Source of the DNA: a virus
DNA: 58,119 bases
IMG/VR virus record: IMGVR_UViG_3300029319_000051
Span: 1 to 58,119 of that record
Strand: one strand, 5' to 3'
Part shown: piece by piece, positions 5,059 to 50,055 of the stretch
Numbering within the stretch: the stretch's first letter is position 1
How the letters are laid out: every line of letters begins with the position of its first letter
Position numbers and translations under genes: made by a program
The notes under the pieces: generated by a model
What the model saw: only the letters and a program-made list of their open reading frames with translations
What the model was told of the DNA's origin: nothing
Database searches by the model: none

Positions 5059-5190
5059 TTGAAAAAGCATTACTTCAATCCCAAGAAAAAAAGAAAAGCT
5101 CCCTCAGTGGAGAGAGAGCGAAGACGCTTAAACAATGAAGCTGTCAAAAAATCTGTCACTCGCAGAGGTGACCAAAAGCATCACGGCTAA
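5059..5190 (+). CDS. Possible basic small protein with TTG start, 43 aa
   Basis: A frame opening at TTG two bases after the previous stop reads KKHYFNPKKKRKAPSVERER and ends GDQKHHG. It overlaps the first 56 bases of the peptidase gene in another frame. Its composition matches the other small basic proteins of this phage. There is no ATG, which weakens it. Confidence 0.35.
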   Translation: MKKHYFNPKKKRKAPSVERERRRLNNEAVKKSVTRRGDQKHHG

Positions 5191-25585: not shown

Positions 25586-26469
25586 TGGCATTTGAAGACG
25601 TAACATATAGCGGCGAGAGGTCAACTAATGGCACCAAAAGTGAAACGATGAACTTCGTTTCTCTTAGGCAGCTGATTGATGACTTTATTGTGACAATGGA
25701 CAGTGATGACTACATCAGCAACGTGTCCGACACAGCCATAAGAAACATCGCACTTCGTGGCATTAGAGAGTTTGGCTTTGACGTCAGCAGCCGCGTGCGC
25801 TCTATAAAAAGAACGATTCAGTCTAACAACACCGTGATCTTGCCTGAGGACTATGTAGATCTCGTTAAGATTGGAGTCGTAGACAGCGACGGCATACTCA
25901 GGGTTTTGGGTCAGAACAAAAACTTAAACTACTCTAGGAAGTTAACTACTGAAGTCGCTACAACAGACAGCGAGGCTGGCCCATTGAATCTAACCTCAAA
26001 CATAATTAAAAACAGGGAAGACGACAAGAATGCTACTGCTGGAAGCAACAGCGGCAACGGAGACCTTGATCACTTTATCTTTGAGAACTACTTGTTTCAA
26101 GGGGGGATAGGAAGGCTCTACGGCTTAGGTGGTGGACACCTTGCTGGGGAGTACAGAATCAATCTTGATCAAAACAGAATAGAGATAGACACTGACTCAG
26201 GCAGCAGTGAGATTGTCTTGGAGTATATTGCTGACGAAGCCAGGTCTACCAATCCCGTTATACATGTGTACGCTGAGGAAGCTTTGAGGAGCTACATGTA
26301 CTACAAGCTTTGCGAAAGAAAGTCTACGGTGCCAGCCAACGAAAAGGCCAGAGCCCGACGTGAGTATTACAACGATCGTCGATTGGCTAAGGCTAGACTC
26401 AGTAACTTCAGTAAAGATGAAGCACTGAAGACAATTCGTAAAAATTACCTACTGGCACCTAAGTACTGA
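25585..26469 (+). CDS. Neck/ring-type protein, 294 aa
   Basis: SLRQLIDDFIVTMDSDDYIS, then IRNIALRGIREFGFDVSSRV and TVILPEDYVDLVKIGVVDSD form the start typical of the ring/adaptor proteins seen in crAss-like and marine Bacteroidetes podoviruses. The C-terminus (HVYAEEALRSYMYYKLCERK) is helical. It probably builds the ring below the portal that holds the nozzle. It overlaps the giant nozzle gene by one base. Confidence 0.6.
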   Translation: MAFEDVTYSGERSTNGTKSETMNFVSLRQLIDDFIVTMDSDDYISNVSDTAIRNIALRGIREFGFDVSSRVRSIKRTIQSNNTVILPEDYVDLVKIGVVDSDGILRVLGQNKNLNYSRKLTTEVATTDSEAGPLNLTSNIIKNREDDKNATAGSNSGNGDLDHFIFENYLFQGGIGRLYGLGGGHLAGEYRINLDQNRIEIDTDSGSSEIVLEYIADEARSTNPVIHVYAEEALRSYMYYKLCERKSTVPANEKARARREYYNDRRLAKARLSNFSKDEALKTIRKNYLLAPKY

Positions 26470-32400: not shown

Positions 32401-32762
32401 ATGCAGCACAAAACAATGATACTACTAACTTTTCTCAAGAAGTACTAAACGAATATAATGACCTGGTTGCTGGCGAACCTGTTGATTTTGACGATGTAAG
32501 AGCCTTGTTTGAAAGCGGGGGTGTTTCAGGCCCTGAGGCAGCAGATTTGCTAGATGCTTTGTTGACGGCAAACCCTTCAGCTGGGTTTGACTTGGATGGC
32601 GACGGATCGCTCGGCGTGTCCGACCTTTTGGGCTTCTTGGGCGGCTTCGGCCTACCTGTGGATCCCATTCAGGCCCCTGAATCTATAGGATCTGTATTTA
32701 CCGACGCCGACGCCGACGCCGCTGCCGACTCAGGGGGAACACCACCCGACCAGAATACATAA
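26469..32762 (+). CDS. Giant tail nozzle/tubular protein with dockerin-like C-terminal tail, 2097 aa
   Basis: The N-terminus (FPRKLNRSKDARLLDKTEMY) matches the beginning of podoviral nozzle or tail-stabilisation proteins (P22 gp10-like, crAss-like tubular proteins), which usually have 700-1100 residues. The body to about residue 1590 is beta-rich (HTYKVLYGGNNSISDFVQYT, IVRYTSFNDSKLPFKDLQAN, DSAVYFVSVRNKEVYRFNPN), compatible with a beta-propeller. From about 1600 the protein becomes an acidic Gln/Asp/Asn-rich extension with degenerate units around LTPDQQDIY and LTAVQQGQYNQIFNTG. It then ends with GFDLDGDGSLGVSDLLGFLG (about 2036-2055), a calcium-loop dockerin-like motif. The tail extension looks like an added module. 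Confidence 0.7.
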   Translation: MIDKIFPRKLNRSKDARLLDKTEMYNAINISIDDFDTAVDDTSDTGDAGVIKPVKGNDAIDQDTTVLESGESARVIGSVVDEVNGQIYLFVFSTNAEKQGVYRITADDNVEAIYVSEYFEFQNDDFVKGDIVYHSDGNVILYFTDGRNEPKKLSLDDTAIAAATGASASRVKDFITACPKTPMHPPTWEFFSEPTKPINFRSVEGFQFAYQCIYSTGEESAISTYSDVAIPTPYLTQGSLTEPNLEAANGLLVKIPKEVRGIPNYTDNIERIRLLVRIGNDGAFFTVSEKDAATGSDELTFEFYNDSVLTGVPQEDQDKLNDALPRIARAQTVINDRLIYGNYTEGYETNSVNATLTTVNTPRPEDFVDLKIGVRPLISPAFADSPAFSEESPSNISVSLNGENFDITQEGVGNKVFNRRASYQFDLSDLPSVLPEGAIVDISFAIEPDGNFELYDSDRSFHAFKNNGFGLSSNVGDNKSIFDDYRGVKKSGTTHEYLIGDGSPTRFQDNSGVGATGLTWNVVDPGDEVGIVQGPIQNITFGTSPSNPFIIPQALVKFRARFKIINGVEGSTSVKAFVTNVLKGYFSDGDTSLAGVDFFPPEIAVELTPGQDRSPTVSIDQFMNSSNGYGFIPDTDKRARTVVSCFSKDEYNTPLGVTDFENAFSAVGYFAVNKADVTFSLRYSEDVNNAVSGDAEYDVGPIFSLHIDEVSNVETVTMIPRITRSGSRGWIYFTKFYLSGGGSPGAPLAPGANDANIRKICLLDSPQQPDPDISIEDNDYNIFFLSRHFCPITDNTTNAAQTLSDAGVGGNFLRSLTVRPLDFLNAGALEVIPVDPSTGFEIGDTRLGRSNQAFEGFQGTSKNFIGGGSVVLSVSGSTELDNDFRVESGKSTYPGAQTYLSQKLRHIGYLELNPEPDSVNGEIIRIADPVAPSGIIYSIIDGEVNIRQNYQAGRLSPSYWYGVYYDTEYGGRNNNQFALSEGSNSSSPEGLHHGKFSYKTFAGQEATNILDELIPEIEPGRASFSLTSTSISSGATGRSFKRNCSHSFALLYYDERGRPGEPVPLGSHFVAQVANPGLASIRLDIDPDTTLPDWAHTYKVLYGGNNSISDFVQYTAGGAFTPPISDDKNGVIYVSLNYLQHNNEVSYSKSFGAVKSDGDKDLYTYSEGDILRIISYYNDDSEVVYPRIANPHEFQVIDTVTLNDDPVQNPLAVEGEEVHPAKTGQFVIIKDNKNASGFSFQDVSNSGSDGQTSDEIYNPNNYWNRRCVFEIFTPQKKKEVESRVYYEIGKSYNVVRGNENSDAIHQTTSILIDQGDVYFRKMAVNMPDFDFETQSFAGLIGDGTDTIDEKTSPNFRSYHLESKAFTDIFPNADVLPYGKPRVALQKVQPTTPTIATPNIQSGSSSNQYTRKSSLKFSDRSNANSNIVRYTSFNDSKLPFKDLQANDGEIFYLVNYADSIFCIQRLKCSSIPVSRNILSDALGNETVINTAKVLGTEKYYAGNYGTDVPESVTEADSAVYFVSVRNKEVYRFNPNSGIEVISEKGMGSFFDSVLSDAETKGSYKVTGGFDADQQEFILSVTAPLTTLENPDRPAPFNTVPAQQTSIQDFLEEPAEVGPVVTVNETEISQNEQIADLQQEVFELQDENNDLIEINEELSAQDFVGVTQAQVDDQIDFVVSTIIGAVGDGGLTPDQYANPGPLTPEQLQDIENVITAALEAARDDGADSVDFNVPDTLNDDQQAQLTSIIDNAAADFDLTDTDGFTLEQQNQFDQIQTEAVQAFGNTPFEELTPDQQDIYTGIEESNDAQIEADAILQADGDYTAGLEAGQDSVDLTDFDSLTAVQQGQYNQIFNTGFTDGQISVDLGQPGVSAGNLNAAQLESLTAYVSAAAGNLDISDFNNLNEAQQEQYNAIIALGVENLLTRFDQADPNNLEATLTPQESTLYLEIRSSNDQEIINFANQQAFQSFYNQFSLQAVADAAQNNDTTNFSQEVLNEYNDLVAGEPVDFDDVRALFESGGVSGPEAADLLDALLTANPSAGFDLDGDGSLGVSDLLGFLGGFGLPVDPIQAPESIGSVFTDADADAAADSGGTPPDQNT

Positions 32763-34987: not shown

Positions 34988-36659
34988 CTTATTTGCTGGG
35001 GCTCCCCTACCTGGTCGCTTTGATGAAGTTCAGCAAGCAGATCTTTCTCAAGTTACCACTACGTTTAGGGCTATGGACATTCGGGACAAAGAAGCTGCCC
35101 GAAGATTTGAGAGGGCTGAAGACATGCGTCGTGAAGACCTGGATAAAATTGCTGGGTTTGATATATCTAGCCTTGGTCAGATGGGATCTGAAATTTTTCA
35201 AGTTGACGCTGAAGCTCTTGCTGAACAAATAAAAAACGGAGAGCTTGACCCTACTGAAGCTAGAGCCGCAATAACAAAGCTTACTTCTGATTACGGTCAA
35301 TACAAAGCTCATGGCGACGCCATGTTGGAGCGCAGCACCTACGCTAAAAATGTGGCTACGGATGCAAAAGCAAGACAAGCTCACAATGATGGTCTTGCAG
35401 TAGGCTATCAAACCACTTATGGTGTTGATGATTACGGCATTCAAAAAAACCTATCTATGAACCAACTTTTTTTGCCAGGCAGTGCGAAAAAAGGAAGAGA
35501 TGGTAATTGGACCGTTATAGACCCCAACACAAATCAAAGAGTTCCTATAACGCAGGTTACTGGGTATGCAAATCCAAACCACTTTTACAGATTTGGTGAG
35601 GAAAAAATTGATGTGGGTGATTTGCAGACTAGCGCCATGAGTGAGCCCATACAAAACAGAATACTTAAAAGAGGTAACAACGTATTTTATGAGGAAAACG
35701 CCATCATAGAGTATGACACTCTGACTGAAAACAGCAATAAAACAGGCCAAACTTTAAGACTTCAAATACTTGAAGACTATCAAGATGAGTCTGGCAAAAG
35801 CACATATTTTAACGAGTCTGATGAGCAAAGAGCGTTTCAATTTGGGCCCAATGGATACAACAGAATCCAAGGCATTCAAAACGAAGACGAAAAAATAAGG
35901 CTTCAACAAGCTTGGTTAAGTGTGTGGGGACCTCCTGGACAAAACAGAACGAAAGACGAGTCTGGAAATATTGTTGCAGAAGGTAGCGGTTGGGATCTTT
36001 TAAATTCAGAAAGATCTAAGTTTGTTGAGTATGCAAGAACTAAGACCTCTACCGATGAGCTTATGAAGAGAGAAAGATTGCGAACCTCTCGAACATCTGG
36101 CGATGGAACTAGTGTGGAAGATCTTTATGGGTTTGAAGAAACCATAGAAGATGTTGCTGCTGGCATGGGTCCTCAGCCAGAAACTGCTATGTCTTATGGT
36201 ATGACTACAATAAAAACACCCATACAAGTAGAGGCTAGTAGCTTTGGCGATGGTGGAGATTATGAAATACACGCCTTTGGAGTTGACCCAAGAAATGGAA
36301 ACATTACAGCCAGAGTGTTTGATGATGTCAACATAACACTACACCAGTATACTGATGAAAACGGATCTGTGTTGTTTGCAACATCAGCTCAAGAGGCGAA
36401 TGCACTAGCTAAAGAAAAAGGTGGCATTTACGAGGGTAAAACATCAAAAGTTAAAAACCCCAACCCGCCACAAAGAACAATAGTTATATCTCCTGGCAAT
36501 CAAACCTTTGGTAACGAAGTTTACAATCGTATATTTGGTGTTGACCCCAAAACGGGAGGCCCAACGAATGCAACAGCAATTGAGCTTTTGAATGCTCACA
36601 AACAAAAAGCCAATAGAATGGTTGCTCAAGATGCTGGAATACCCATACCCAATCAATAA
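34980..36659 (+). CDS. Internal virion / DNA-ejection-type protein, 559 aa
   Basis: A soluble, charged and helical protein (TTFRAMDIRDKEAARRFERA) with a middle region of mixed structure. It overlaps the previous gene by eight bases and the giant polyvalent gene by one. Together the three genes mirror the gp14-gp15-gp16 series of T7-like phages in order and increasing size. No enzymatic motif was recognised. Confidence 0.55.
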   Translation: MSNLFAGAPLPGRFDEVQQADLSQVTTTFRAMDIRDKEAARRFERAEDMRREDLDKIAGFDISSLGQMGSEIFQVDAEALAEQIKNGELDPTEARAAITKLTSDYGQYKAHGDAMLERSTYAKNVATDAKARQAHNDGLAVGYQTTYGVDDYGIQKNLSMNQLFLPGSAKKGRDGNWTVIDPNTNQRVPITQVTGYANPNHFYRFGEEKIDVGDLQTSAMSEPIQNRILKRGNNVFYEENAIIEYDTLTENSNKTGQTLRLQILEDYQDESGKSTYFNESDEQRAFQFGPNGYNRIQGIQNEDEKIRLQQAWLSVWGPPGQNRTKDESGNIVAEGSGWDLLNSERSKFVEYARTKTSTDELMKRERLRTSRTSGDGTSVEDLYGFEETIEDVAAGMGPQPETAMSYGMTTIKTPIQVEASSFGDGGDYEIHAFGVDPRNGNITARVFDDVNITLHQYTDENGSVLFATSAQEANALAKEKGGIYEGKTSKVKNPNPPQRTIVISPGNQTFGNEVYNRIFGVDPKTGGPTNATAIELLNAHKQKANRMVAQDAGIPIPNQ

Positions 36660-39600
36660 TGAACGGAGAAGATCTTACACAAGTAGGCGCTGAGGTTTCA
36701 GACATTGAAAAGAGCATTGACCTCCTGTCAGAAAAAGGATATGACTCCAATAGGATCATGGAGGTCATGTCCTCTGTTGGCTATGACTCAAATCAGGTTT
36801 ACAATGAGTTCGTTCGTCGTCACGAAGATGAGCGCCAGAGAATGTTGGAGGAGAAAGAGAGAGCAGACGCTTTGTTTCAGCAACAGCGTGACGCATACGA
36901 CGCGCTATTAAAAAAAAAAGACTTACCATCAGAACAAGATGGGGAGTCCTTGGATTTAGATCCCCAATTACCTGGAGCCCAAGCATCGGTAGCTGACCCA
37001 CGTTTGTTCGAGATTCGTCAGAACGACGAGTTGGCAATGAATGGTGTGACAAACAGCAGGATTGGCAATGAGCTTGTCCGTGCTGTAAGTTTCAATGACT
37101 CTCAGGCAGTAACTAAAGCGCTTGAAAGCGCTCAGTCAAATGGACTTCTTACTGAATTTTCTATCGAAGACGAGTACGATCAGGAAACCCTGCAAAAGAT
37201 ACAAGGTGCTGGTAATGAGATGATTGGCTTTGGAAAGAGCAGCTATCAGCTGGCTCTTAGCAAGGCCAACGAGATTAATAAGTCTTTAGGTATAGACATT
37301 GAGTACGACATCAACAGTGAAACAGACTTTGGTTTGTTCCTAAGAGAGTCTGTAGAAAGAGTAGAAAGGAACGAGGAGGACTTTAACAAGAGGACAGAGC
37401 AGTTTATCCAGCAGATCCCAGGCATGAGAGATGAGGAGGTGGGATTTGGCAGCATCCTTCTTGATGACTTAAGTTTTTCTAACATGGTGTCTGGCATGGC
37501 AGCATTTCAGGCTGATGTGTTCGGAGAGGGGGCTGGTCTTAAGAGTCTTTATGGGGATTCAGTAACCTCAGAGTACTATCAGGAAAAGATTAGAAAAACA
37601 AATCAGGCCAACGCCCAGCGCGAAAAGCTTTTTTACGAAGATCTTGAGGTGGCTGAAGAGGCATACTCTATGGGCAGCACAGAAAGGGTTGCGGCTGCAT
37701 GGAGAGGGGACATATCAATGGGTGATTACCTAGCTGCTACTACCGTAGAAACCAGCAGAGTAATGGTCGATGGCATAAAGTCTATTGCAGAGTATATAAT
37801 AAACCCAGCTGTTTTAGCTATTGATGTGTTTGGAGAAAGCTATGGAAACACTAGGACTTACTCTCCACATCTGAGCATTACTGAAGCGGCTGTTACATCT
37901 GCTGCCAAGGCTACGACTGAAGTCGTAATGGAAAGGATTATGATGGGCCTTGGTGTCGGCGCTGAAGCCCTTGTGAAAGGGTCTCTAAAAACTGCAAAGC
38001 AAACACTAAGAGGATCAAAACGTGCAGCTATAGATAAGGCTAGAAAAGACCTTGCTGGTAAGCTGACAGGTAGTTTGTCTGGTAAAATTATTGGAAACAC
38101 CGCTATTGAAGGGCTTGAAGAGGGGTTGGTAGAGATAACAAACTGGGCTATTGATGCTGCCGACAATGTCGCAATGGGCAGAAATGTTAAAGACCTAAAC
38201 TTCAGCGAAGTAGGTGATGCCTTCTTTGCTGGTATGGCTGGTGGGTTTGGTCCAATCGCCGTTACACAGCTGCCTTCTCACAGGGGGCACATTAAGTTTA
38301 TGTCCGACAGGTCTAACGTAATGAAGGCGATAGCCGAGCTTAGAAAGGACTATGAAGCTGAAACAGACCCCGTTAGAAAAAAAGAGCTAGAAAAAGACTT
38401 GATGAATGCAATGGTTAGATCCAATGTGATCACCAATGCAGAAAACAAAATGTACGAGGACTTTTCTCCAGAAGAGAAGAGGACAGTCATCATGTACAAT
38501 CAGGAAATATCTAATCTTCAACAGACTCTAGACACAGGCAAGTACTGGAACGGAGACAAGGTTACTTCTGAAGAGCGTACTGCTCTTGAAGCTAGGCTTA
38601 AGAACGCCATAGATAGGAAGGCTAAGATTGAAGCTGGTGTAGAGGCAAGACAGGGTGAGGAACAGTCTAAGGAAGAGGTTGAAACACCCCCAACTGTAGA
38701 GAACGCAGCAGAGACCAAGGCAGAAACAAAGACAAGGAAGGTGCCTAAGTCTGAAAAAGATATCCATAAGGATATCCCTGTCCCTACAGAGAAGGCACCT
38801 CAGGGTCAAGAGCAGGAGGCTGTTCAGCTTTCTTTGTTTGATGAGAACACTGTTCTCGATCCAGTAGCTGAGCCTGAAACTCAGCCAGAAGTACAAGAGG
38901 AAGCTCCTGTACAGGAAGAAGTAAAGACAGAGGCCGAGCAAGAAGCAGACAAACCAGTAGAGGAGCAAGGCTTCTTTGAGCTAAATGCAGAAGAAGCTCA
39001 GAAGTTTGACCTCAAGGACACTAAAGTAGTCGGTGATGGTGCTGGCCAAATATCTATACCCCTTGCCTCTAAAATAAACAAAGTCATTGATGCCTTTGGG
39101 AAAAGGGGACTTAAGGGTATCAAGGTTAGATACCACAGAAACACAGAGTCGTTGAGAAATGTTGACCCCGAGGTGGCTCAACAACTTGACCAAATTGAGT
39201 TGCAGAACCAGCAGAGTGGAAAAAAAGCAAGACTTGGTGGGTATTTTTTAAACGGTACGATTCACCTACACAAAGACAGCGATGCTCTTGATGTGCTAGA
39301 GGAGTTTAGTCACGGGGTGCTGAAAGATGTTATCGGAAAGGAAGCTAAGTCTAGAGAAAGACTTTACAATGAGCTGGTTGATATGTCTAAGGGCAAGTCA
39401 AAAGCTGCTCAGGAAGTAAAGAAAGTTCTTGATGAAAGAGAGAGGCTTTATAAGGGTGTGAGTGATGCTACAATGCAAGAAGAGTCTATTGTTTTCTTCT
39501 TGGTAAACTACGCTCAAAATCCTTCTTCGTTCTCCTCCTTAAAGTCTAGGATAAAGTCTGCTTTGAACAGATTTTTTAAAAGCGTCGGAGCTAAAAGCAA

Positions 39601-42600
39601 CATTATAAAAACCGACGACTCGCTATTGAGACTTGCCAACAAGTTTAGAGATGCAGCACAGGGAGTAGAAACTCAAGTACAACCTGAGACACGGGCAGAA
39701 ACAGAGCCTGAAACAGAAGTAGCTCAAGAAACAGTAACTCCTGACAAGGACCCTGCCGACATGACCCCTGAAGAGCTTGAGGCATACACCAATCAGCTTG
39801 TTGAGGGGGCCGAGGGGGTGGAAACCTCACAGGACGACGCTCTATCTAAAAGCACCCAAGACATTGATGTGACACCTGGCATGGCGTCAATTAGGCAAAA
39901 GCAGAACTTTAACTACTTAAAAGACACTGAGATATTCTACACTCACTATCCAACTCTTGGTGCTGGCGACTTACCCTTGACTAGCAGCAGATACACTACG
40001 TACAGTGTAGAGAAGTCAGTAAAGGTAAATGACTACTTTCACTTCAGGAACTGGTACAACTATCAAACTGGCAATCAAGTGTCTAGAAGAATTGCCAACA
40101 TGTACTTTATCAAAGATGGTAAAAAGTACAATGTTAATCCGCCAAGACCAAAGGTTGATCGGAATGGCAAGATAGTCCCTATGGATCTGCCGTTAACTTT
40201 TAGGCAGAGACAAAGACAAGAGTCTTTTCAAAAAGCAAAAGATTCTAAAAATATTCTTGCCAGAGTAAAAGACATCAATGACACCAACAGGAAGCTATTT
40301 GACACAATTCCTTGGAATGGGCTTGTAAATGCCAGGGAGTTTGCGCCAGCAACCAAGCCTCTATATGAGATGACTGCAAATGACAAGTACGTTGCTGCAG
40401 TTATTGAGCAAAAAAACTTGCAGGCTGCCATTGATATGGGGCTTACAAAAGAAGAGGTACAAGAGAGAGTTAACAAGCCAGACCGTGGCGGAGTCACAGG
40501 GAAGCTTAATAGGCTTATGGATGGTGACATTGTAAATGCTACTGGACTAGTGCCATTTGAGCAGGCAGAGACTGGAGACACCGTAGGTATGTTTGCTCTT
40601 AGAGACCTCAATGTTGAAAAGTTAGGTAAGCCCGATCACGTGGCGTCTAATGAAGAGCTTGCTGATTTAAAAGAGGGTAATATCGAAAGAATAAAGAATT
40701 TATTTATGAAGTTCTTCGGGTATGATAGAAGCATGCCCAATCAAGAAAAAGGAATTACCTCTGGCATTAGAGCGGTTCAGAGGCTGGACGAGACAGACAT
40801 TCCTGAACTCAAAGAAGGGGAAAGAGTTTTATCTACCCACGTCAGCTTTAGTCACGCCCAAAAAGGCATAGAGGCATATAGAAAAGAAGCTCAGGCACGC
40901 TACAGACAAGACAACAGTGTAACCTCTGGAGAGTTTGGGGCTGGATTTACTGTGCTTCTCCCCGAAGCCACAAGAGGCAACCCAGATGTCGTTAAAGCGT
41001 ACTTAAATGGCCTTTTGGCAAGGTCTAAAGATAGGGAGGCTGGTTTGCCTGGTCCTGCATTGTACAATAAGTTTACTTCAACAGGGAAGAGACTTATTAG
41101 ATCAATGGTAAAACAAGCTGAGGCTGAACAATACGAGGGGTTGTCTCCAGAAACCGCAAGGTTATTTTCTTCACCTGAATTTGATCGCCCTGTTACAACT
41201 GAAAAACAGTTTCAAGAAATAATAGATGTAGCAATCAATTTTAACGAAAAGCTTCCAGATCAATTTGAGGCCAGAAAAAGTCTATTTTCAGAGGATCTTT
41301 TGGAAGAATTTTTGGGGCATGAATCTTATGAGATGGCAAGAGAAATACCCCACCCGTCTCTTAAAATGGACGACCAAATAGCAGAGTATTTTAACGACCC
41401 GTCTCTTAGCAATCAAGCTGCAGGCACTCTTATAGGATACAAAACTTTTTCCTACGAAGTAGAGGTAGTAGAAGGCGCTAAAGCAAGATCAAAAGGCGGA
41501 GAAGAGTTTGTTGACTTTAAAGAAGGAACTATAAGAGCCGTCAAACTAGATGGTTATGGTTTTGCAGGGGCTATTGTTGTCAAGGGAGAGGTTAGCGATT
41601 TAGAGGTTTTGAAGGAGCAATACACTCTTGATAGACTAGACCCAGATCAGTTTAAAGATCCAGAGCTAGTCCCCACCACTGAGCCCGATCCAGAAACAGG
41701 GATAAGGGTGGCCAAAGACACCAAAACTCCGTACCAAAGAATGGAGGAGCGCAACAGATATAGTCGGATTGAGATGAACTCAGTCAGAAATGACTATGAT
41801 GGGAACGCATCTATCAGAGAGGGAAGAGGCCTTACGTCTATTCGTACTGACCAAGGTACATTCGAACTGTCGGATCTCAACTCTTATCAAGAGTGGAGAA
41901 ACAAGTGGATCAAAAGGCTTCAAGACAAATACGTAGACATCTTCAAAATACAGCAGGATGTAGAGACTGCTAGAGGCAAAATAGATAGAACTCAAGACTT
42001 CCGCATGGCCGAAGAGCTCATGTACGGTAAGGCAGCAGAGGATCTGCGTAAACTTGACGAGAAGGTTGACGGTATTACAAGTGAGCTCAAAGCAAACAAG
42101 ATATCTCCAAGTGAAATATCAGAATACCTATATGCTTTACATGCTCCTGAACGAAACCAGCTGATTAGTGAAAGGTCTGAAGGTAAAATTACTGAGGGAT
42201 CTGGAATGAGCAATGCTAGGGCTAAAGAGATTATAAACGCTATCCCATCAGGCAAACAAAAGGCCTACGACAACATCGTCAAGATGGTTAGAGAGATTCA
42301 GCAGGACACTAGAGACACGATGGTAAACTTTGGCCTTGAGTCAAAAGAAACCATTGACGCATTTGAGGCTATGTATGAAAACTACACGCCTCTATCTGGT
42401 ATCGCAACAGATGAAGAAACGTCATTTGATTCTTCTTACCCAACGGGTGGGGCTGGACTTTCTGTGTTTGGGCCAACCACCAAAAGGGCGGAGGGCAGAA
42501 AGACAGAGGCAACAGATATACTAGCCCAGGTAATCGCTCAAAACGCTTCGATACATATTAAGTCAAGAACCAATGAGGCTCTTCAATCTTTGTACAACTT

Positions 42601-44509
42601 GGTTGAACAAAACCCCAACCCAAAGGTTTGGAGAATTGTTGATGCAGAAAAAGCAAGACAACAAGACCCTCATTCTGTTGGTGTTAGAGTGGGCGGTGAG
42701 CAGAAGTTTATTAGATTCAAGGACGCCAGCCATGCTGAGACACTAAGGAATCTAAATCTGCCAGCCACAACCACCTTAATTAGAGTTCTTCGAGCTCCAT
42801 CTAACTGGTTGAGAAGGTCGTTTACAACTTTGAACCCAGAGTTCATGGTGTCTAATTTCTCTAGAGATATCCAAGCCGCCCTGTTCAACGCTGCGGCGGA
42901 GGCTGATATCCCAGGAGGACTTGTAGAAGGCAATGCAATTATTGCTGACATGATTAAGACGGTGCCAGCAACTCTGAAAGCCTTGACTAGAGATGAGGTG
43001 GGGGCTTTGAAAAAAGTTTTTAAAGACAACCCAGAGATAGAGCGGTACTACAACGACTTCAGAGAAGACGGGGGAAAGACGGGTTGGAGCTATGCAAAGC
43101 CATTGTCAGACATAGCTAAAGACCTAGAAGGCAAGACTGGTGAGAAGACTAGGATGCAAGAAATTCTAGGCAAGGGGAAAAACTTCCTTGATACTATTGA
43201 GGGAGTAAATGATGCCTTTGAAAATAGCATCAGGCTGTCAGCATACATTGCTGCAAGAGAAAAGGGTGTAGGCAGGGAGAAGGCAGCACAGCTGGCAAAG
43301 AACATTACCGTGAACTTTAACAAGTCTGGCGAATATGGACAGGCTATCAATGCGGCATATTTGTTTTTCAATGCTTCTGTTCAGGGAACTGCAAGATTAG
43401 GTAAATCCTTGCTCACTTTCAAGGAGCCAACATATCCAGACGGAAGCCGAAGAAGACCCATAGACAGAATAAACAACGCACAGAAGATGGCAGCTGCCCT
43501 CACTGTGTTTAATGGTCTTCTCACAATGTTGGGTCTCGCTATGTCTGGAGAGGATGAAGATGGAGAGCTTTACTACAACAAGATCCCCGCTTACATAAAA
43601 GAAAGAAACCTCATAATCATGAGGCCTGATGGCGAAAACTACTACAAAATTCCTATGCCTTATGGGTTTAGCGTCTTTGCTAACCTAGGTAACCTATCTG
43701 TAGAGGTCGGTGCGGGACACAAAGAAATAGACGAGGCGATGTTCCAAATGATATCGTCAACCATAAACTCCTTCTCTCCAGTAAGTTTTGGTCAGTCTGA
43801 AGATTTGATTACAAAAGTTGGAAAAACAATAACTCCAACATTCTTTACGCCAATTATAGACTATATGGCCAACGAAACATACTTTGGCACTCCAGTTAGA
43901 GCCAAGAACTTGCCGTATGGTTTGCAAAAGCCTGAGTCATCATTGTCATTTAGATCTCCAGAATCTGTTCAACAGTTTTTTAGGTGGTTGAATGAAGCTA
44001 GTGGTGGATCAACAGAAGTCAAGGGGGATATAGATATCAACCCAGATGCTTACTGGTACTTCTTCGAATACTTTATTGGAGGTGCGGGTAAGTTTGTTAC
44101 AAGAACAGGAGAGGCTACCAGAAGGTTGGCAGCTAAGGCTTCCGACACTGACGTGCAGATAGAGGCAAATGATATTCCATTCTTGAGGCTGCTTTACGGT
44201 GAGCCATCTAAGTTCATGGACGTTGAGGACTACAGAAAGAGACGCGATATAATTAAGTCCCTGAGGTCTGAGATGAAAGCGGGCAGGAGAGACGACCCAG
44301 GAAGATATGATGGTGTTCTCCTCCTAAATCAAAGGCTTGACTTCTTTGACAAGCAACTTAAAAATATCAGGGCTCAAAAAAGAAAGGCCTTGAACATAAA
44401 GGATTACGCACAGAGAACAATAAGGATAGAGGAGTTAAGAGAAAAAGAAAGAAGTATAGTTATGAACTTTAATGAGCAATATGAAAAACTCAGAGGGAAA
44501 AAAGATTAA
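36659..44509 (+). CDS. Giant polyvalent ejected protein with LPD38-type C-terminus, 2616 aa
   Basis: The first 130 residues are helical and charged. A hydrophobic region follows near 350-480. Around residues 700-770 lies a disordered Glu/Pro/Gln linker. At about 878-890, LDVLEEFSHGVLKD sits where metallopeptidase-type polyvalent proteins carry HExxH, but the first His is Glu here. The C-terminal part is the clearest: NPEFMVSNFSRDIQAALFN (about 2059-2077), YLFFNASVQGTARLGKSLL (about 2234-2252), then YIKERNLIIMRPDG and YYKIPMPYGFSVFANLG (about 2312-2345), which I recognise as the large polyvalent-protein domain LPD38. Such proteins travel in the virion and enter the cell with the DNA. It is T7 gp16-like in place and role. 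Confidence 0.75.
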   Translation: MNGEDLTQVGAEVSDIEKSIDLLSEKGYDSNRIMEVMSSVGYDSNQVYNEFVRRHEDERQRMLEEKERADALFQQQRDAYDALLKKKDLPSEQDGESLDLDPQLPGAQASVADPRLFEIRQNDELAMNGVTNSRIGNELVRAVSFNDSQAVTKALESAQSNGLLTEFSIEDEYDQETLQKIQGAGNEMIGFGKSSYQLALSKANEINKSLGIDIEYDINSETDFGLFLRESVERVERNEEDFNKRTEQFIQQIPGMRDEEVGFGSILLDDLSFSNMVSGMAAFQADVFGEGAGLKSLYGDSVTSEYYQEKIRKTNQANAQREKLFYEDLEVAEEAYSMGSTERVAAAWRGDISMGDYLAATTVETSRVMVDGIKSIAEYIINPAVLAIDVFGESYGNTRTYSPHLSITEAAVTSAAKATTEVVMERIMMGLGVGAEALVKGSLKTAKQTLRGSKRAAIDKARKDLAGKLTGSLSGKIIGNTAIEGLEEGLVEITNWAIDAADNVAMGRNVKDLNFSEVGDAFFAGMAGGFGPIAVTQLPSHRGHIKFMSDRSNVMKAIAELRKDYEAETDPVRKKELEKDLMNAMVRSNVITNAENKMYEDFSPEEKRTVIMYNQEISNLQQTLDTGKYWNGDKVTSEERTALEARLKNAIDRKAKIEAGVEARQGEEQSKEEVETPPTVENAAETKAETKTRKVPKSEKDIHKDIPVPTEKAPQGQEQEAVQLSLFDENTVLDPVAEPETQPEVQEEAPVQEEVKTEAEQEADKPVEEQGFFELNAEEAQKFDLKDTKVVGDGAGQISIPLASKINKVIDAFGKRGLKGIKVRYHRNTESLRNVDPEVAQQLDQIELQNQQSGKKARLGGYFLNGTIHLHKDSDALDVLEEFSHGVLKDVIGKEAKSRERLYNELVDMSKGKSKAAQEVKKVLDERERLYKGVSDATMQEESIVFFLVNYAQNPSSFSSLKSRIKSALNRFFKSVGAKSNIIKTDDSLLRLANKFRDAAQGVETQVQPETRAETEPETEVAQETVTPDKDPADMTPEELEAYTNQLVEGAEGVETSQDDALSKSTQDIDVTPGMASIRQKQNFNYLKDTEIFYTHYPTLGAGDLPLTSSRYTTYSVEKSVKVNDYFHFRNWYNYQTGNQVSRRIANMYFIKDGKKYNVNPPRPKVDRNGKIVPMDLPLTFRQRQRQESFQKAKDSKNILARVKDINDTNRKLFDTIPWNGLVNAREFAPATKPLYEMTANDKYVAAVIEQKNLQAAIDMGLTKEEVQERVNKPDRGGVTGKLNRLMDGDIVNATGLVPFEQAETGDTVGMFALRDLNVEKLGKPDHVASNEELADLKEGNIERIKNLFMKFFGYDRSMPNQEKGITSGIRAVQRLDETDIPELKEGERVLSTHVSFSHAQKGIEAYRKEAQARYRQDNSVTSGEFGAGFTVLLPEATRGNPDVVKAYLNGLLARSKDREAGLPGPALYNKFTSTGKRLIRSMVKQAEAEQYEGLSPETARLFSSPEFDRPVTTEKQFQEIIDVAINFNEKLPDQFEARKSLFSEDLLEEFLGHESYEMAREIPHPSLKMDDQIAEYFNDPSLSNQAAGTLIGYKTFSYEVEVVEGAKARSKGGEEFVDFKEGTIRAVKLDGYGFAGAIVVKGEVSDLEVLKEQYTLDRLDPDQFKDPELVPTTEPDPETGIRVAKDTKTPYQRMEERNRYSRIEMNSVRNDYDGNASIREGRGLTSIRTDQGTFELSDLNSYQEWRNKWIKRLQDKYVDIFKIQQDVETARGKIDRTQDFRMAEELMYGKAAEDLRKLDEKVDGITSELKANKISPSEISEYLYALHAPERNQLISERSEGKITEGSGMSNARAKEIINAIPSGKQKAYDNIVKMVREIQQDTRDTMVNFGLESKETIDAFEAMYENYTPLSGIATDEETSFDSSYPTGGAGLSVFGPTTKRAEGRKTEATDILAQVIAQNASIHIKSRTNEALQSLYNLVEQNPNPKVWRIVDAEKARQQDPHSVGVRVGGEQKFIRFKDASHAETLRNLNLPATTTLIRVLRAPSNWLRRSFTTLNPEFMVSNFSRDIQAALFNAAAEADIPGGLVEGNAIIADMIKTVPATLKALTRDEVGALKKVFKDNPEIERYYNDFREDGGKTGWSYAKPLSDIAKDLEGKTGEKTRMQEILGKGKNFLDTIEGVNDAFENSIRLSAYIAAREKGVGREKAAQLAKNITVNFNKSGEYGQAINAAYLFFNASVQGTARLGKSLLTFKEPTYPDGSRRRPIDRINNAQKMAAALTVFNGLLTMLGLAMSGEDEDGELYYNKIPAYIKERNLIIMRPDGENYYKIPMPYGFSVFANLGNLSVEVGAGHKEIDEAMFQMISSTINSFSPVSFGQSEDLITKVGKTITPTFFTPIIDYMANETYFGTPVRAKNLPYGLQKPESSLSFRSPESVQQFFRWLNEASGGSTEVKGDIDINPDAYWYFFEYFIGGAGKFVTRTGEATRRLAAKASDTDVQIEANDIPFLRLLYGEPSKFMDVEDYRKRRDIIKSLRSEMKAGRRDDPGRYDGVLLLNQRLDFFDKQLKNIRAQKRKALNIKDYAQRTIRIEELREKERSIVMNFNEQYEKLRGKKD

Positions 44510-44924
44510 AGACACGGGCCTTGGCAAGTGGCTCAAGTCAAAAGCACCTAACGTGCTTGATGTTGTAGGCGATCTGCTGCCTGACAGCGGTGGCCTTGGT
44601 GTGGTCAAAAACCTCATAGACAAAGAGCCCAATATTGATCCAGCTGAAGCCAAAGCTGCCATCGATGCAGAGGTAAAGTTTCAGGAAAATGTCACCGAAA
44701 GATGGAAGGCTGACATGGGGAGCGACGTAAAGTTGGCGAAGCTCATCAGGCCAGTGACACTCATCGCTTTGATGAGCATGTTTATGGTGACCATGGTTGC
44801 CGACAGCATGGACAACTGGCCATTTAACGTAAAAGATTCCTACGTATCTTTGCTTGAAATCCTGATGCTCACTGCTTTCGGTGCGTATTTCGCAGGCAGA
44901 ACCATAGAAAAAGCCAAAAAATAA
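44472..44924 (+). CDS. Holin, 3TM gene-transfer-release family, 150 aa
   Basis: A soluble N-terminal half (IKDTGLGKWLKSKAPNVLDV, an amphipathic segment near FQENVTERWKADMGSD) precedes membrane helices: LIRPVTLIALMSMFMVTMVA (about 91-110) and LEILMLTAFGAYFAGRTIEK (about 126-145). The VTERWKADM...IRPxTLI...GRxIEK pattern is that of PF11351-type holins. It makes the inner-membrane holes that free the endolysin. The start overlaps the polyvalent gene by 38 bases. Confidence 0.8.
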   Translation: MSNMKNSEGKKIKDTGLGKWLKSKAPNVLDVVGDLLPDSGGLGVVKNLIDKEPNIDPAEAKAAIDAEVKFQENVTERWKADMGSDVKLAKLIRPVTLIALMSMFMVTMVADSMDNWPFNVKDSYVSLLEILMLTAFGAYFAGRTIEKAKK

Positions 44925-44925
44925 C

Positions 44926-45057
44926 ATGGAAGAGGACTTCGACGATATCAGCTTTTTGGATCAAGACAAGCTCAAGAAGCAAGAGAAGAAGATTGAAGAC
45001 GGTGAGATCACCTGCAACATCGACAACCCAGAGGATTGCGAGTCATGCAGCGGATAA
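44926..45057 (+). CDS. Tiny acidic protein, 43 aa
   Basis: The product begins MEEDFDDISFLDQDKLKKQE and ends CNIDNPEDCESCSG with three cysteines. It fits between holin and the secreted protein, overlapping the latter by 13 bases. Function not recognised; the Cys-rich acidic end could bind metal. Confidence 0.5.
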   Translation: MEEDFDDISFLDQDKLKKQEKKIEDGEITCNIDNPEDCESCSG

Positions 45058-47465
45058 TCTCCTTGCTATTTTTGTTGCCGATGTTGGCTTCGGCCCAAAC
45101 AGGTTGGATAAACTTTGAGTTTCAAGCCGATCAGTACGGGGGTGAGAGCACCTGGGAGATCTATATGGTTGGCTCTGACAGCATATATGCTGCTGGAGGA
45201 CCATACGAGTCAAACTCATACACTGAGCAGCTGATTACCCTGCCAGCTGGTGAGTACAACCTAGTGGTAAACGACGAGTTTGGAGATGGCATTTGTTGCG
45301 AGTTCGGAGAGGGGTGGTTTGGTTTTGAAAACAGCTGCGGAGTCAACACATACGTATATGACTTTGCATCAGAACAGGTAACTGTACCCTTCAACCTATT
45401 GCCATGTCCTCCGCCAGTATCTGGCTGCATGGATGAAGACGCGAACAACTACAACCCACAAGCGTATTTCGACGCGAACAACTGCCTTTATGACGTTACC
45501 TTCAGGCTGGATCTTAATGGACCGCATCCGCCTGAGATAGACATCCCAGAGGTAAACTCATCGGCTAACGCATGGTGCGGGAATTGTTGGCCCATGTCTG
45601 ACGAAGACGGGGATGGCGTTTGGGAGGTCACAGTAGAGATGCCAGAAGGAGAACACCTTTGGAAGTTTTCTGCTGACGAATGGGAGGTTCAGGAATTGCC
45701 AGTAGGCGTTTCTGAGTCTCCTTGTTTTTTGTTCGATGAGTTTGGGTATGTCAACAGAACAATAAACGTGCAGGGGGACATGATGCTGCCTCCATTTTGC
45801 TGGGAAAGCTGTCTGCCCTGTGGTGCTATTCCAGGGTGTACAAATCCTAACGCTAGCAACTGGAGTCCTTGGGCAAACTTTGACAACGGATCGTGTAGTG
45901 GACTTGGGGCTAACTGCCAGCCTTGGGAGACAGAGATTACAACCATTCTTGTTTCAGACAACTATCCTGAAGAGACAAGCTTCAATGTTTACAACGTAAC
46001 GTCAGGCGAAGAGCTGCTGGACGTATCTATCGGGGATGTGTCTCAGCTAGTTGTTGGGGTTCCGATGGCGTTCTCTACATGCGCCACAGTAGGCGATGTT
46101 GTTGAGGTAGAAATATCTGACAGCTTTGGTGACGGACTTGGGGCTTCTCAGTGGGGTGGTCAAGACGGAACAGCACTTGTCGTGGCTTGTGGAGACACTC
46201 TGTGGGAGTTGCCTGAAGCAGACTTCGGATACACTGTGTTTACAGATTTTAACACCCCTGCTTGTATTGGCGTTGAAGATGTGGTGGGGTGCGGAGACCC
46301 AGACTACCTGGAGTACAACCCAGACGCAACGATCCAGCTTGACGTCTTGTGTGAGACTCTCGCTGTGTATGGGTGCGTAGATGATTCATACTTCAACTAC
46401 GATTCACTTGCAAACACAGAAGATGCGATAGACTCTTGTTTTTATACGCTGACGATTACAGACGGTGTTGGAGACGGTTGGTTTGGGAGCTGGCTTGGGA
46501 TTTACCAAGACGGATGGACATCTCCTCAGTACAAAATGGGGCCGAATGACGGAAACGAAGAAACCTTTGATGTGTATCTGTCATCTGAGGAGGAGATAGA
46601 GCTGTTCTTCTTTACGACTCCTCAGTCTCAAAACCAAGTGGCTCAGTGCGGTTTCATGCTTGTGGGCCCAACAGGTGATACCCTCATCGATGTTTCGCAG
46701 TGGAGCATCACACCCTTCCCAAACACATACACGGTAACTCCTTACTGCGGAAACAGCTGCATTCCTTTTGTCTACGGATGCACCGACGATCTCGCACAGA
46801 ACTACAGCTCATCAGCAAACGCAGACGACAACAGCTGCTACTACAACGCTGGATGCACTCAGGCTGGATATTTAGAGTACTACACTCAAGGCTATGAAGC
46901 CGACTACGATGACGGCAGCTGCCTTACCCTAGCGCTGTTCGGTTGCACAGATCCAGATGCCTTGAACTACGATCCAGAAGCCAACGTGGACATTGACTCT
47001 TGCATAGACGTTGTTGAGGGGTGCATGGACATATACGCTTACAACTACAACGAAGACGCAAACACACCGACAAATGATTGCCTGTATGATGCTGGCTGTG
47101 TGACTGGACCAGGAGAGCCATACTGGGCTAACGACTACTGCTACTCATGGGTTATAGAGGTTGACCCGTACTGCTGCGAAACAGCGTGGGATGGAGTGTG
47201 TGAGCAGATGTATGACTACTGCGAGCAGGGAGTAACTTCAGTTGATATTGTTGATAGATCAGAGCTGCACTTTTTCCCAAACCCTACGTCTGGCATCGTA
47301 AACATTCAAGCACCCACAGGCACAAGAGTAAAGGTGTTTGATGCTAGGGGGAGGTTTGTTGCGACAACCACGGGCAGCACCGTAGAGCTACCATCTCCAG
47401 GCCTTTATGTTGTCACAGCTAACTACAAAGGTGTAATCAAGAGAGAAACAATCATAAGACAATGA
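45045..47465 (+). CDS. Secreted Cys-rich repeat protein with type IX secretion C-terminal sorting domain, 806 aa
   Basis: A signal peptide (MQRIISLLFLLPMLASAQ) is followed by beta domains. At least eight repeats of the type GCxDxxAxNYxPxAxxDxxSC occur near residues 126, 263, 415, 442, 575, 602, 633 and 659. A late DPYCCETAWDGVCEQM motif lies near 705-720. The last ~67 residues are a type A T9SS sorting domain: LHFFPNPTSGIVNIQ, then VKVFDARGRFV and PGLYVVTANYKG. This would send the protein through Sec and then the Bacteroidetes-only type IX system to the cell surface. It lies in the lysis/export cassette after the holin. The repeats are common in marine flavobacteria, so acquisition from the host is likely. 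The start at 45045 is preferred to TTG at 45036 because it begins the signal peptide. Confidence 0.85.
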   Translation: MQRIISLLFLLPMLASAQTGWINFEFQADQYGGESTWEIYMVGSDSIYAAGGPYESNSYTEQLITLPAGEYNLVVNDEFGDGICCEFGEGWFGFENSCGVNTYVYDFASEQVTVPFNLLPCPPPVSGCMDEDANNYNPQAYFDANNCLYDVTFRLDLNGPHPPEIDIPEVNSSANAWCGNCWPMSDEDGDGVWEVTVEMPEGEHLWKFSADEWEVQELPVGVSESPCFLFDEFGYVNRTINVQGDMMLPPFCWESCLPCGAIPGCTNPNASNWSPWANFDNGSCSGLGANCQPWETEITTILVSDNYPEETSFNVYNVTSGEELLDVSIGDVSQLVVGVPMAFSTCATVGDVVEVEISDSFGDGLGASQWGGQDGTALVVACGDTLWELPEADFGYTVFTDFNTPACIGVEDVVGCGDPDYLEYNPDATIQLDVLCETLAVYGCVDDSYFNYDSLANTEDAIDSCFYTLTITDGVGDGWFGSWLGIYQDGWTSPQYKMGPNDGNEETFDVYLSSEEEIELFFFTTPQSQNQVAQCGFMLVGPTGDTLIDVSQWSITPFPNTYTVTPYCGNSCIPFVYGCTDDLAQNYSSSANADDNSCYYNAGCTQAGYLEYYTQGYEADYDDGSCLTLALFGCTDPDALNYDPEANVDIDSCIDVVEGCMDIYAYNYNEDANTPTNDCLYDAGCVTGPGEPYWANDYCYSWVIEVDPYCCETAWDGVCEQMYDYCEQGVTSVDIVDRSELHFFPNPTSGIVNIQAPTGTRVKVFDARGRFVATTTGSTVELPSPGLYVVTANYKGVIKRETIIRQ

Positions 47466-47665
47466 GAGTTAGAAAGAAGAAAAAAAACAAAGTAGATTAC
47501 AGCACTGCATACGAAGGCGCCATTGGCAAAAGCAGTAGTCGGCAAGCCGCAGAAAAAATGTGGGCTAGCAAGGCTTCTGCTGAAGAAATGAGTCTTGGGT
47601 CAAAGACAACCATGGATCAAGACGGTAATTACATAGTAAGAACTAGACTTTCGTCAAAGGCATGA
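47462..47665 (+). CDS. Small basic protein, 67 aa
   Basis: MRVRKKKKNKVDYSTAYEGA starts a short, soluble, basic protein. It lies between two exported proteins with four-base overlaps on both sides, although it has no signal peptide itself. Function not recognised. Confidence 0.55.
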   Translation: MRVRKKKKNKVDYSTAYEGAIGKSSSRQAAEKMWASKASAEEMSLGSKTTMDQDGNYIVRTRLSSKA

Positions 47666-48708
47666 AACACTTAGCCGCCATAGTTCTTTTTGTTTTGCCT
47701 TTTGTTGCAAACGGCCAAAGCAACTTCTACAAAGAAGTGCTGAGAAGAGCTACGTTTTATGCAGCTGTAAACGGAGGTAACTCTGTATCGGACGAAGATG
47801 TTTTTTCCGTGGCCACAGGACCGCTCACCACTGATGTTGTAGAGACTCCGTTTGATTACTCTCTGACCCTAGGGGTAAGAAAGATTGCAAGGTTTGGTTA
47901 CGAGAACAGAGCCAACGTGTTTTACGACGGCACAGAGAAGACATACGGCGATGCAGCCACCGTAGGTAAGTACGACGGTTTTGAGTTCTTAGCTGAGGCT
48001 GACTGGCGCAGACAGCAGGGTAAAAACTTCTTGGATCAAGATTACTTTGCCAGATACGTCGCAGATAGCTGGGTGGTAAAAACAGAATACCTTCAGGACG
48101 GGTTCGCAGACGTCAGATACTTTGAGGCTTCAGAAAGACTCAGAGTAAAGATTGGTAAAAAGCTGTCGTTCAACGCTGGTGTGGTCCAAAGGATTTCTCA
48201 GCCATACGGGTACGACCCTCTTCAGATATGGTTGTTGGACAACAATCAAATACACTATACAGCACTGGCTCTGGAGCAGGGGTACAGCGTTGATGTAAAC
48301 ACAGGAGAGTTCTTTTCCCCAGATGGAGAGATGGTTGCAAACGATCAGGCGGTATGGGAGCAGGTGGTGATACCTCAGGTGATTGACGAATACGTATCTG
48401 AAAAAAGAGCAGAGCTGGACAACCAGTGGCTTTACTCAGCGGTGTTGGGGTTTGACTTCTACCACTACGAAAAGGACTTTTGGCTGCACTCGTGGGGTAA
48501 CGTGATGCCTTATCACCTTGACACTGGCGATGAATACTCTTACCACAATTTCGTGAACAGCAGTCAGTGGGTAGACTTGGGCTTTGGTTTGGTGTTCGGA
48601 ACTAAGCTTACCAAGAGCTTTGGTATATTTGCAGAGGGCAAATACAACAGATACTGGAACAGAGAGTGGCATGACTTCTCTGTGGGACTCAACTACATAC
48701 TATTGTAA
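47662..48708 (+). CDS. Outer-membrane beta-barrel protein, 348 aa
   Basis: A signal peptide (MKHLAAIVLFVLPFVANGQS) is followed by alternating amphipathic strands with aromatic girdles (FDYSLTLGVRKIARFGYENR, LSFNAGVVQRISQPYG, WVDLGFGLVFGTKL, FGIFAEGKYNRYW). It ends with the strand FSVGLNYILL; a final strand ending in hydrophobic residues is typical of BAM-assembled barrels. It would be placed in the host outer membrane during infection. Possible roles are receptor masking, superinfection exclusion, or outer-membrane disruption at lysis; the sequence does not decide. Confidence 0.7.
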   Translation: MKHLAAIVLFVLPFVANGQSNFYKEVLRRATFYAAVNGGNSVSDEDVFSVATGPLTTDVVETPFDYSLTLGVRKIARFGYENRANVFYDGTEKTYGDAATVGKYDGFEFLAEADWRRQQGKNFLDQDYFARYVADSWVVKTEYLQDGFADVRYFEASERLRVKIGKKLSFNAGVVQRISQPYGYDPLQIWLLDNNQIHYTALALEQGYSVDVNTGEFFSPDGEMVANDQAVWEQVVIPQVIDEYVSEKRAELDNQWLYSAVLGFDFYHYEKDFWLHSWGNVMPYHLDTGDEYSYHNFVNSSQWVDLGFGLVFGTKLTKSFGIFAEGKYNRYWNREWHDFSVGLNYILL

Positions 48709-48992
48709 TGGCACAACAAATTGGAGAAGACACTAAGGTAACGCTCGATCTCAAGACGCTTGGGATGGTGGCGGCAGGGATAGGCACTGTTGTGGCTATG
48801 TGGTTTGCGTTGCAAGCGGACATTGCTGAGGCAAAGGAGCTGCCCCTTCCTGCTGAGCCAGAGATCACGCGCATGGAGTTTGACATGAAAGATCAGCTGG
48901 TTCGCCAAACAATCATGACGACTCAAGAAGATGTGACTGAAATCAAAGAAGATATCAAGCGCATCGAAGAGAAAATAGACCAACTAAAATGA
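48708..48992 (+). CDS. Membrane-anchored coiled-coil protein, 94 aa
   Basis: A single membrane helix (TLGMVAAGIGTVVAMWFALQ, about residues 17-36) is followed by an acidic stretch and a coiled coil (TEIKEDIKRIEEKIDQLK). This resembles small holin-associated or inner-spanin-like proteins that span the inner membrane with a periplasmic coiled coil. It starts one base inside the previous stop (TAATG). Confidence 0.65.
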   Translation: MAQQIGEDTKVTLDLKTLGMVAAGIGTVVAMWFALQADIAEAKELPLPAEPEITRMEFDMKDQLVRQTIMTTQEDVTEIKEDIKRIEEKIDQLK

Positions 48993-48995
48993 CAA

Positions 48996-49361
48996 ATGAA
49001 ACTCATATCAACCCTGTATGTGTGCTTTGCATTATTTCTGGCGGCGGTTTTTGTAACGCCTGCAGAAAATAATCAGGTATGCAGTTCTGGCATTTGTGTT
49101 GTTGAGTTCAACGCGAGCTTCAACGCATCAAACACTGTGCCCTGGATCGAAGATCTAAACGACTGTTATACAAGTCGAGTTGACATTGTGGCCTCTCCTG
49201 AACTGCAAAGAGAGCACAAGATTGTTGTAGTCCCAACCATCGTTGTCTTCAACGAGGGAGAGGAGGTAAAAAGGTTTCAAGCAAACATCATGATGTCAAT
49301 GGAGGCATCAAAAGAAGATGTTCAAGAAGCCATTGATGAGGTAATACTCAACGACTTTTAA
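48996..49361 (+). CDS. Exported thioredoxin-fold protein without the CxxC centre, 121 aa
   Basis: A signal/membrane segment (MKLISTLYVCFALFLAAVF) is followed by a thioredoxin-like core: CVVEFNASFNASNTVPWIED (strand and helix 1), VDIVASPELQREHKIVVVPT (strand, then the cis-Pro loop VVPT) and IVVFNEGEEVKRFQ. The usual WCxxC centre is replaced by the NASFNASNTVPW stretch, so it is unlikely to be a redox enzyme; a binding or chaperone role is more likely. It is the last plus-strand gene and meets the minus-strand arm stop to stop. Confidence 0.65.
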   Translation: MKLISTLYVCFALFLAAVFVTPAENNQVCSSGICVVEFNASFNASNTVPWIEDLNDCYTSRVDIVASPELQREHKIVVVPTIVVFNEGEEVKRFQANIMMSMEASKEDVQEAIDEVILNDF

Positions 49362-49794: not shown

Positions 49795-50055
49795 TTACGG
49801 GCGCTCTACCCTTACTCTCAAGACGTAGACGTCAGGTACGTCAGTCTCAACAAGAGTGTAGGCCGTTCCCATGTAGTCATACTCAGTGGCCCCCAACAAA
49901 ATCTCACACTCAAAGTATTTAACTGGATGGTTACCGTCCCACTTAGTGGCGATAAGCAAATCACAGTTGTACTTCTCTGGGTGAACGAAAAGTTTCTTTG
50001 GTGCTGTGCTGCATCCAGCAGCAAGCAAGGTCAATAACAGTGCTGTTGTTCTCAT
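49795..50055 (-). CDS. Phage lipoprotein, 86 aa
   Basis: MRTTALLLTLLAAGCSTAPK is a signal peptide with a lipobox (LAAGC, lipidated Cys15). The mature part is 72 residues with beta-like pieces (YFECEILLGATEYDYMGTAY). As a membrane-anchored lipoprotein it may act in superinfection exclusion, as other phage lipoproteins do, or as an outer-membrane spanin partner of the coiled coil at 48708. The sequence does not decide. Confidence 0.7.
   Translation of the reverse strand: MRTTALLLTLLAAGCSTAPKKLFVHPEKYNCDLLIATKWDGNHPVKYFECEILLGATEYDYMGTAYTLVETDVPDVYVLRVRVERP

Follow-up and report, generated by a model that had tools for sequence, protein, structure and literature searches.

A type IX secretion-tagged cargo and a virus-specific outer-membrane barrel form a conserved cassette in phages probably infecting Bacteroidota

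Background

The stretch of viral DNA analysed here (the window; 58,119 nucleotides, positions 1 to 58,119 of IMG/VR record IMGVR_UViG_3300029319_000051) encodes a protein that had been read as addressed to the type IX secretion system (T9SS) of the host. This raises the question of what use a phage might make of a secretion route that belongs to its host cell, and with which other phage products such a protein might work. In the cellular systems type A substrates exit via the SprA/Sov translocon, are collected by PorV and are then anchored or released, and type B substrates use PorP/SprF shuttles that are mostly encoded next door (PMC12618676, PMC9143113). Phage-encoded T9SS cargos were reported earlier from Cryophage (PMC7468147) and from crAss-like contigs (PMC6949934), and as a principle they are already known.

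Results and discussion

A tagged, cysteine-rich cargo in the late region of a phage

The window is a viral record with terminase, portal and virion genes, and the cargo gene lies directly 3' of a holin gene, which bears out the initial placement in the lysis region of an obvious phage. The lysis genes and the parts of the cargo are as follows:

5135-5614, plus strand: endolysin of the same phage (phrog_894, E 9.4e-35)
44472-44924, plus strand: holin, upstream neighbour of the cargo (phrog_3427, E 1.9e-22)
45045-47465, plus strand: predicted T9SS type A cargo; ATG start, frame open across 806 aa, 39 Cys
45045-45095, plus strand: cargo signal peptide, MQRIISLLFLLPMLASA/Q, by inspection
45102-45389, plus strand: cargo N-terminal domain, GESTWEI ... 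YNLVVNDEFGDGICCEFGEGW, from alignment A1; boundaries approximate
45423-47094, plus strand: stretch with eight Cys-rich GCx[DNQ] repeats
45492-45794, plus strand: CBM48/E-set-like domain; weak Pfam CBM_48 match, E 0.094
47274-47459, plus strand: type A C-terminal sorting domain; TIGR04183, 30.8 bits

Two further very large products are encoded in the same genome: a 2616-aa protein (36659-44509) that over its C-terminal third resembles large PHROGs without a known function (phrog_14770, E 1.4e-178) and is probably a giant protein of the virion interior, and a 2097-aa virion structural protein (26469-32762; phrog_14478), which is also a very large late gene. The product of 14117-15406 has collagen-like tail-fibre matches around residues 28-100.

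By inspection the cargo N-terminus (MQRIISLLFLLPMLASAQ) is a Sec signal peptide, as had been noticed initially, and a hydrophobic, signal-peptide-like start is likewise present in 108 of 108 distinct complete cargos (inspection and hydropathy). The repeats begin at residues 127, 264, 415, 443, 578, 603, 633 and 659; the original count of at least eight GCxD repeats holds for the wider motif GCx[DNQ], with six of the eight being strict GCxD, and in 2000 shuffles the count averaged 0.66 and never exceeded 5. Host T9SS-type proteins share the CBM48/E-set-like domain, and a profile dominated by this region (A5) finds matches in 77 of 148 genomes taken from the order to which a Flavobacteriales MAG belongs. 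No PDB relatives of the cargo were found.

The proposed type A sorting domain was recovered by profile search, with TIGR04183 matching residues 744-805 at 26.4 bits (E 5.2e-6; NCBIfam cut-off 23 bits); in a scan of the whole record the cargo tag is the sole match to this model, at 30.8 bits. The Pfam family PF18962 scores 22.6 on the window's cargo, under its gathering score of 27, and 35.7-41.2 bits, above that score, in three relatives scanned. The tag of the window's own cargo is thus a modest match to the sorting-domain models. Its company is constant, in that GC repeats, tag and signal-peptide-like start are combined in every one of the 108 distinct complete cargos.

Close relatives of the cargo itself occur at 16 virus loci. 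At four loci (L075, L076, L078 and L081, from G058, G059, G061 and G064) two different T9SS type A cargos stand in tandem before the barrel gene described below, the second having 411-521 aa and an unrelated body starting QPDLIV. Exported proteins of 175 aa that resemble the cargo N-terminal domain adjoin divergent barrels at L320 (11513-12040) and L325 (11223-11750); they have a short tag-like end (YNLFGQ..GYY), which the sorting-domain models do not recognise.

Three further exported proteins downstream of the cargo

The initial annotation had missed a conserved cassette, and above all a virus-specific outer-membrane barrel encoded directly 3' of the cargo:

47462-47665, plus strand: 67-aa ORF lying between the cargo and barrel genes; present at 4 loci only, not conserved
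47662-48708, plus strand: phage outer-membrane beta-barrel, 348 aa, signal peptide; AlphaFold2 pLDDT 75, about 12 strands
48708-48992, plus strand: 94-aa one-TM coiled-coil protein; homologues at 140 of the 152 cassette loci that extend far enough downstream
48996-49361, plus strand: thioredoxin-fold protein, 121 aa, signal peptide, no CxxC; weak thioredoxin matches, below cut-offs

The order cargo, 348-aa, 94-aa and 121-aa protein is the same in all 16 cargo loci, as far as the contigs reach. Just beyond the cassette a short lipoprotein-like ORF (MRTTALLLTLLAAGCS) lies on the opposite strand (49795-50055, minus).

The AlphaFold2 model of the barrel was built from 81 sequences (a version from 13 sequences reached pLDDT 60) and has two stretches below pLDDT 50. 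Its fold matches in the PDB are general outer-membrane barrels, such as NanC, FapF and autotransporters (Foldseek); VIA-align places Tsx best (Z 14.8), with no match far above the rest. We found no sequence relatives of the barrel in the PDB, and none of the libraries searched names the family. A viral protein in BFVD (A0A516LKJ4) has a similar predicted structure (Foldseek E 2e-21, 21% identity), and a distant relative of the barrel may therefore exist in a described virus.

The 94-aa protein, with one TM segment and a coiled coil by inspection, probably resides in the inner membrane; it has weak PHROG matches only, one of them named lipoprotein. Homologues of the thioredoxin-fold protein are found in 140 of the 152 cassette loci with room downstream, and the CxxC active site is absent from the window's protein and from all the homologues listed.

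Spread of the cassette and pairing of barrel and tag

Two profile scans of IMG/VR recovered at least 535 and at least 564 relatives of the barrel. Among 50,697 deposited phage records tblastn with two barrel queries gave no match, the cargo gave one 41-residue repeat match, and a search with a consensus tag found two unannotated records. The expectation that other flavophages would have the same architecture is consequently borne out as far as recurrence goes, whereas the relatives are uncultivated and deposited phages are nearly without a match. In 84,980 species genomes the barrel has five matches, all on MAG contigs. Three Bacteroidota-named MAG bins with barrel contigs contain 15-42 type A tag matches, and a bin named Nitrosopelagicus with a barrel relative contains one, bin membership being weak evidence of host.

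A type A tag is encoded in 131 of the 132 distinct virus records that hold the barrel or the cargo, six of which had been retrieved via the cargo itself; in 128 the tag scores over the cut-off, and in the single tag-negative record the barrel lies about 700 bases from the contig end. At the level of loci, a tag ORF is found on the same strand as the barrel, nearly always within 2 kb, in 169 of 179. Of the ten loci without a nearby tag, nine are 650 bases or less from a contig end, and the remaining one holds just a fragment of the barrel. Among 24 records that encode a related terminase, 7 have both tag and barrel and the others neither, a match weaker than it appears because the genes adjoin and many of the records are fragments. 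The cargo bodies vary between carriers, whereas the barrel is virus-specific. One 245-kb virus record has two complete cargo-barrel pairs about 119 kb apart (L145 and L159).

A lone host-derived gene or an assembly chimera was considered and set aside, with the cassette recurring in more than 130 virus records and a syntenic relative of 51.6 kb (G138) being cleanly without it between holin and early genes. In G138 holin and endolysin are kept, cargo and barrel are absent, and two short TM coiled-coil ORFs come after the holin, ahead of ribonucleotide reductase. Such absence is frequent: among 60 holin relatives whose records continue for at least 6 kb downstream, the full cassette is present at that place in 23 and entirely missing in 31, the rest having a barrel without a tag (3) or the two small genes only (3).

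We further considered 26 long records selected for having no tag beside the holin. Six of these have a tag over the cut-off elsewhere, with a canonical barrel in all six, and another five lack a type A tag and have barrels that are divergent or partial. Divergent barrels without a recognised type A cargo occur in G163, G165 and G172, so that the barrel may also serve some separate function. A type B tag was matched in 8 of 32 records of this kind, over the cut-off in seven, and none of the eight also has a type A tag over the cut-off; two of the type B cargos adjoin the holin region and also bear GC repeats. The replacement or absence of the type A cargo among relatives indicates that phages of this group can do without a T9SS cargo or exchange it for another.

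Is the barrel a private shuttle?

The closest cellular analogies are the pairs SprB-SprF and PG1035-PorP, in which a T9SS substrate works with an outer-membrane barrel, and in SprB-SprF and most of the Flavobacterium johnsoniae pairs the barrel gene is next door, as in the phage cassette (PMC9143113, PMC12618676). By this analogy the phage barrel could serve the phage cargo alone as its T9SS shuttle and anchor, as SprF does for SprB. Its gene is directly 3' of the cargo, just as PorP/SprF-like genes are 3' of type B substrates (PMC12618676), and adjoins a T9SS substrate gene in the 169 of 179 loci noted above, but the tag is of type A, and type A substrates generally have PorV as their shuttle (PMC12618676). 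Moreover, the barrel is unrelated in sequence to those of the type B pairs: none of 81 barrels matches the PorP/SprF model (TIGR03519) at E up to 1, none matches the PorV models, and a profile comparison with 13 PorP proteins aligns the signal peptide only. About 12 strands are predicted, in a model with two stretches of low confidence, where the FadL family has 14 (PMC9143113); PorV- or SprF-like chains are not prominent among the fold matches, though this excludes nothing.

Divergence within the cassette bears on the same question. A comparison of the window with L002 puts dN/dS of the cargo body at about 0.05 and that of the tag at about 0.09; the barrel has about 0.06, the 94-aa protein about 0.02 and the thioredoxin-fold protein about 0.11, all of them rough values because dS is near saturation. 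Every part of the cassette, including the tag, is under purifying selection, so that the view of the protein as addressed to the host T9SS gains from a tag that is kept by selection. Between L002 and L008, by contrast, the cargo body has a dN of 0.06 and the tag a dN of 0.72, with both tags passing TIGR04183. The tag was thus swapped once for a different type A tag (L008), and the barrel was not. Replacement of one tag by another is expected if the signal matters but its exact sequence does not, and its exchange while the barrel stayed in place speaks against recognition of one particular tag sequence by the barrel. Distances of barrel and tag do correlate beyond those of the 94-aa gene (orf94) and the thioredoxin-fold gene (trx) (partial r 0.30, p 0.002), as a private shuttle would predict; the correlation with the barrel is as good for the cargo body as for the tag, and such moderate correlations could be explained by linkage. 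Strict co-evolution of barrel and tag was accordingly rejected, since their correlation is moderate and does not exceed that of barrel and cargo body. On balance a dedicated shuttle seems doubtful.

Lysis, uptake and virion readings

The neighbourhood of lysis genes invites a second reading, namely that the cassette is part of lysis, with the coiled-coil protein acting like a spanin subunit and the barrel, thioredoxin-fold and surface proteins weakening or opening the outer membrane when the phage is released. A holin or endolysin adjoins the cassette in many members from two unrelated phage types: in phages of 55-65 kb it is the holin, and in T4-like phages the endolysin, as at L107 (178 kb) and at L179, which has UvsX-like and DnaB-like T4-type genes. 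The two TM coiled-coil ORFs of the cassette-less G138 also lie at the equivalent place. Yet G138 and other relatives keep the holin, and G138 the endolysin as well, without cargo or barrel; in some genomes the cassette is far from the holin, and no feature of the cargo points to an envelope-attacking enzyme. We regard this reading as unlikely, although a part in lysis would also suit the late position and the lysis genes nearby.

A role in nutrition of the infected cell, in which cargo and barrel capture glycans or nucleosides and the barrel is the channel, is improbable. The best VIA-align match of the barrel, Tsx, is a nucleoside channel, and the cargo has the weak CBM48-like domain, but Tsx stands just slightly above many unrelated outer-membrane barrels, the CBM match is not significant and the cassette adjoins lysis genes.

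Ig-like domains are common in phage virions, and the cargo gene lies in the late region after the virion genes; still, a tail-fibre-like virion protein whose Ig-like C-terminal domain merely resembles a T9SS tag is the least probable reading of all, given that 108 of 108 complete cargos have, besides the tag, a signal-peptide-like start, which is unusual for virion proteins assembled in the cytoplasm, that relatives bear type B tags instead of type A, and that two neighbours are likewise exported proteins.

A candidate surface-display cassette

The explanation that we somewhat favour overall is a phage-encoded surface-display cassette in which barrel and cargo cooperate, because the cargo signals fit the T9SS, the barrel has no PorP/SprF match and the tag swap opposes tag-specificity. 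To judge from the predicted localisation signals, the cassette supplies one exported protein for each layer of the Bacteroidota envelope: the one-TM coiled-coil protein for the inner membrane, the thioredoxin-fold protein for the periplasm, the barrel for the outer membrane and the tagged cargo for the surface. The cargo would be made late, at the end of the rightward late operon adjoining the holin, would pass the inner membrane by Sec, and its tag would be recognised at the host SprA/Sov translocon, presumably through host PorV, after which it would be anchored on, or released from, the infected cell. T9SS-directed export is the part of this scheme that we regard as highly probable. That barrel and cargo act together is a reasonable expectation, held with less assurance, and the barrel might then be a docking partner, a local anchor or a channel for the cargo.

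As to purpose, we tentatively suggest adsorption control, at rather less than even confidence. The most likely benefit would be an altered stickiness of the infected cell or its debris, through masking of receptors from rival or progeny phage or through adhesion; adhesion and lysis support are serious alternatives to adsorption control. The uses suggested initially, namely a coat on the host surface, a block on other phages or attachment to particles, may each apply, and the present data do not favour one over another. Flavobacterium columnare T9SS (gld/spr) mutants are phage-resistant, indicating that T9SS-dependent surfaces matter to phages (PMC9233685).

Relation to known systems and implications

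With the host T9SS type A cargos of Bacteroidota (TIGR04183) the phage cargo shares a signal peptide, a modular Cys-rich body and a C-terminal sorting domain, and it differs from them in lying in a late operon, paired with a phage-specific outer-membrane barrel. In Cryophage, phage genes with type A sorting domains were proposed to hijack the T9SS for secretion or superinfection exclusion; those cargos are an endoglucanase, a GH39 protein and a PA14 protein, variable genes of one phage, and the accessible part of that report mentions no partner barrel (PMC7468147). By comparison with what is described there, the present pairing of cargo and barrel is conserved across many phages. The crAss-like proteins are alike in being sorting-domain proteins in phage contigs, but, in the available portion of their description, they have BACON repeats and a head-gene neighbourhood with no barrel mentioned, unlike the phage cassette (PMC6949934). 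In the literature searched we found no earlier description of the cassette, the virus-specific barrel, their near-obligate pairing or the alternation of type A and type B tags; cassette, barrel and pairing are new relative to that literature.

T9SS cargo is therefore a widespread feature of ocean phages probably infecting Bacteroidota, of which the two earlier mentions found are side remarks. A barrel gene beside a type A substrate departs from the rule that pairs type A with PorV and type B with SprF, and annotators would gain names for four gene families now called 'hypothetical'. More speculatively, marine Bacteroidota phages might have evolved an envelope-spanning surface-display apparatus of their own, in which a virus-specific barrel would take type A substrates from the host translocon and hold them on the infected cell, together with periplasmic and inner-membrane partners, as a type A counterpart of SprB-SprF unknown in cells. 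The findings suggest that these phages rebuild the surface of infected cells. With the phage resistance of T9SS-mutant hosts as its setting (PMC9233685), the cassette offers a way to test whether phages use the secretion machine of their host to remodel its surface.
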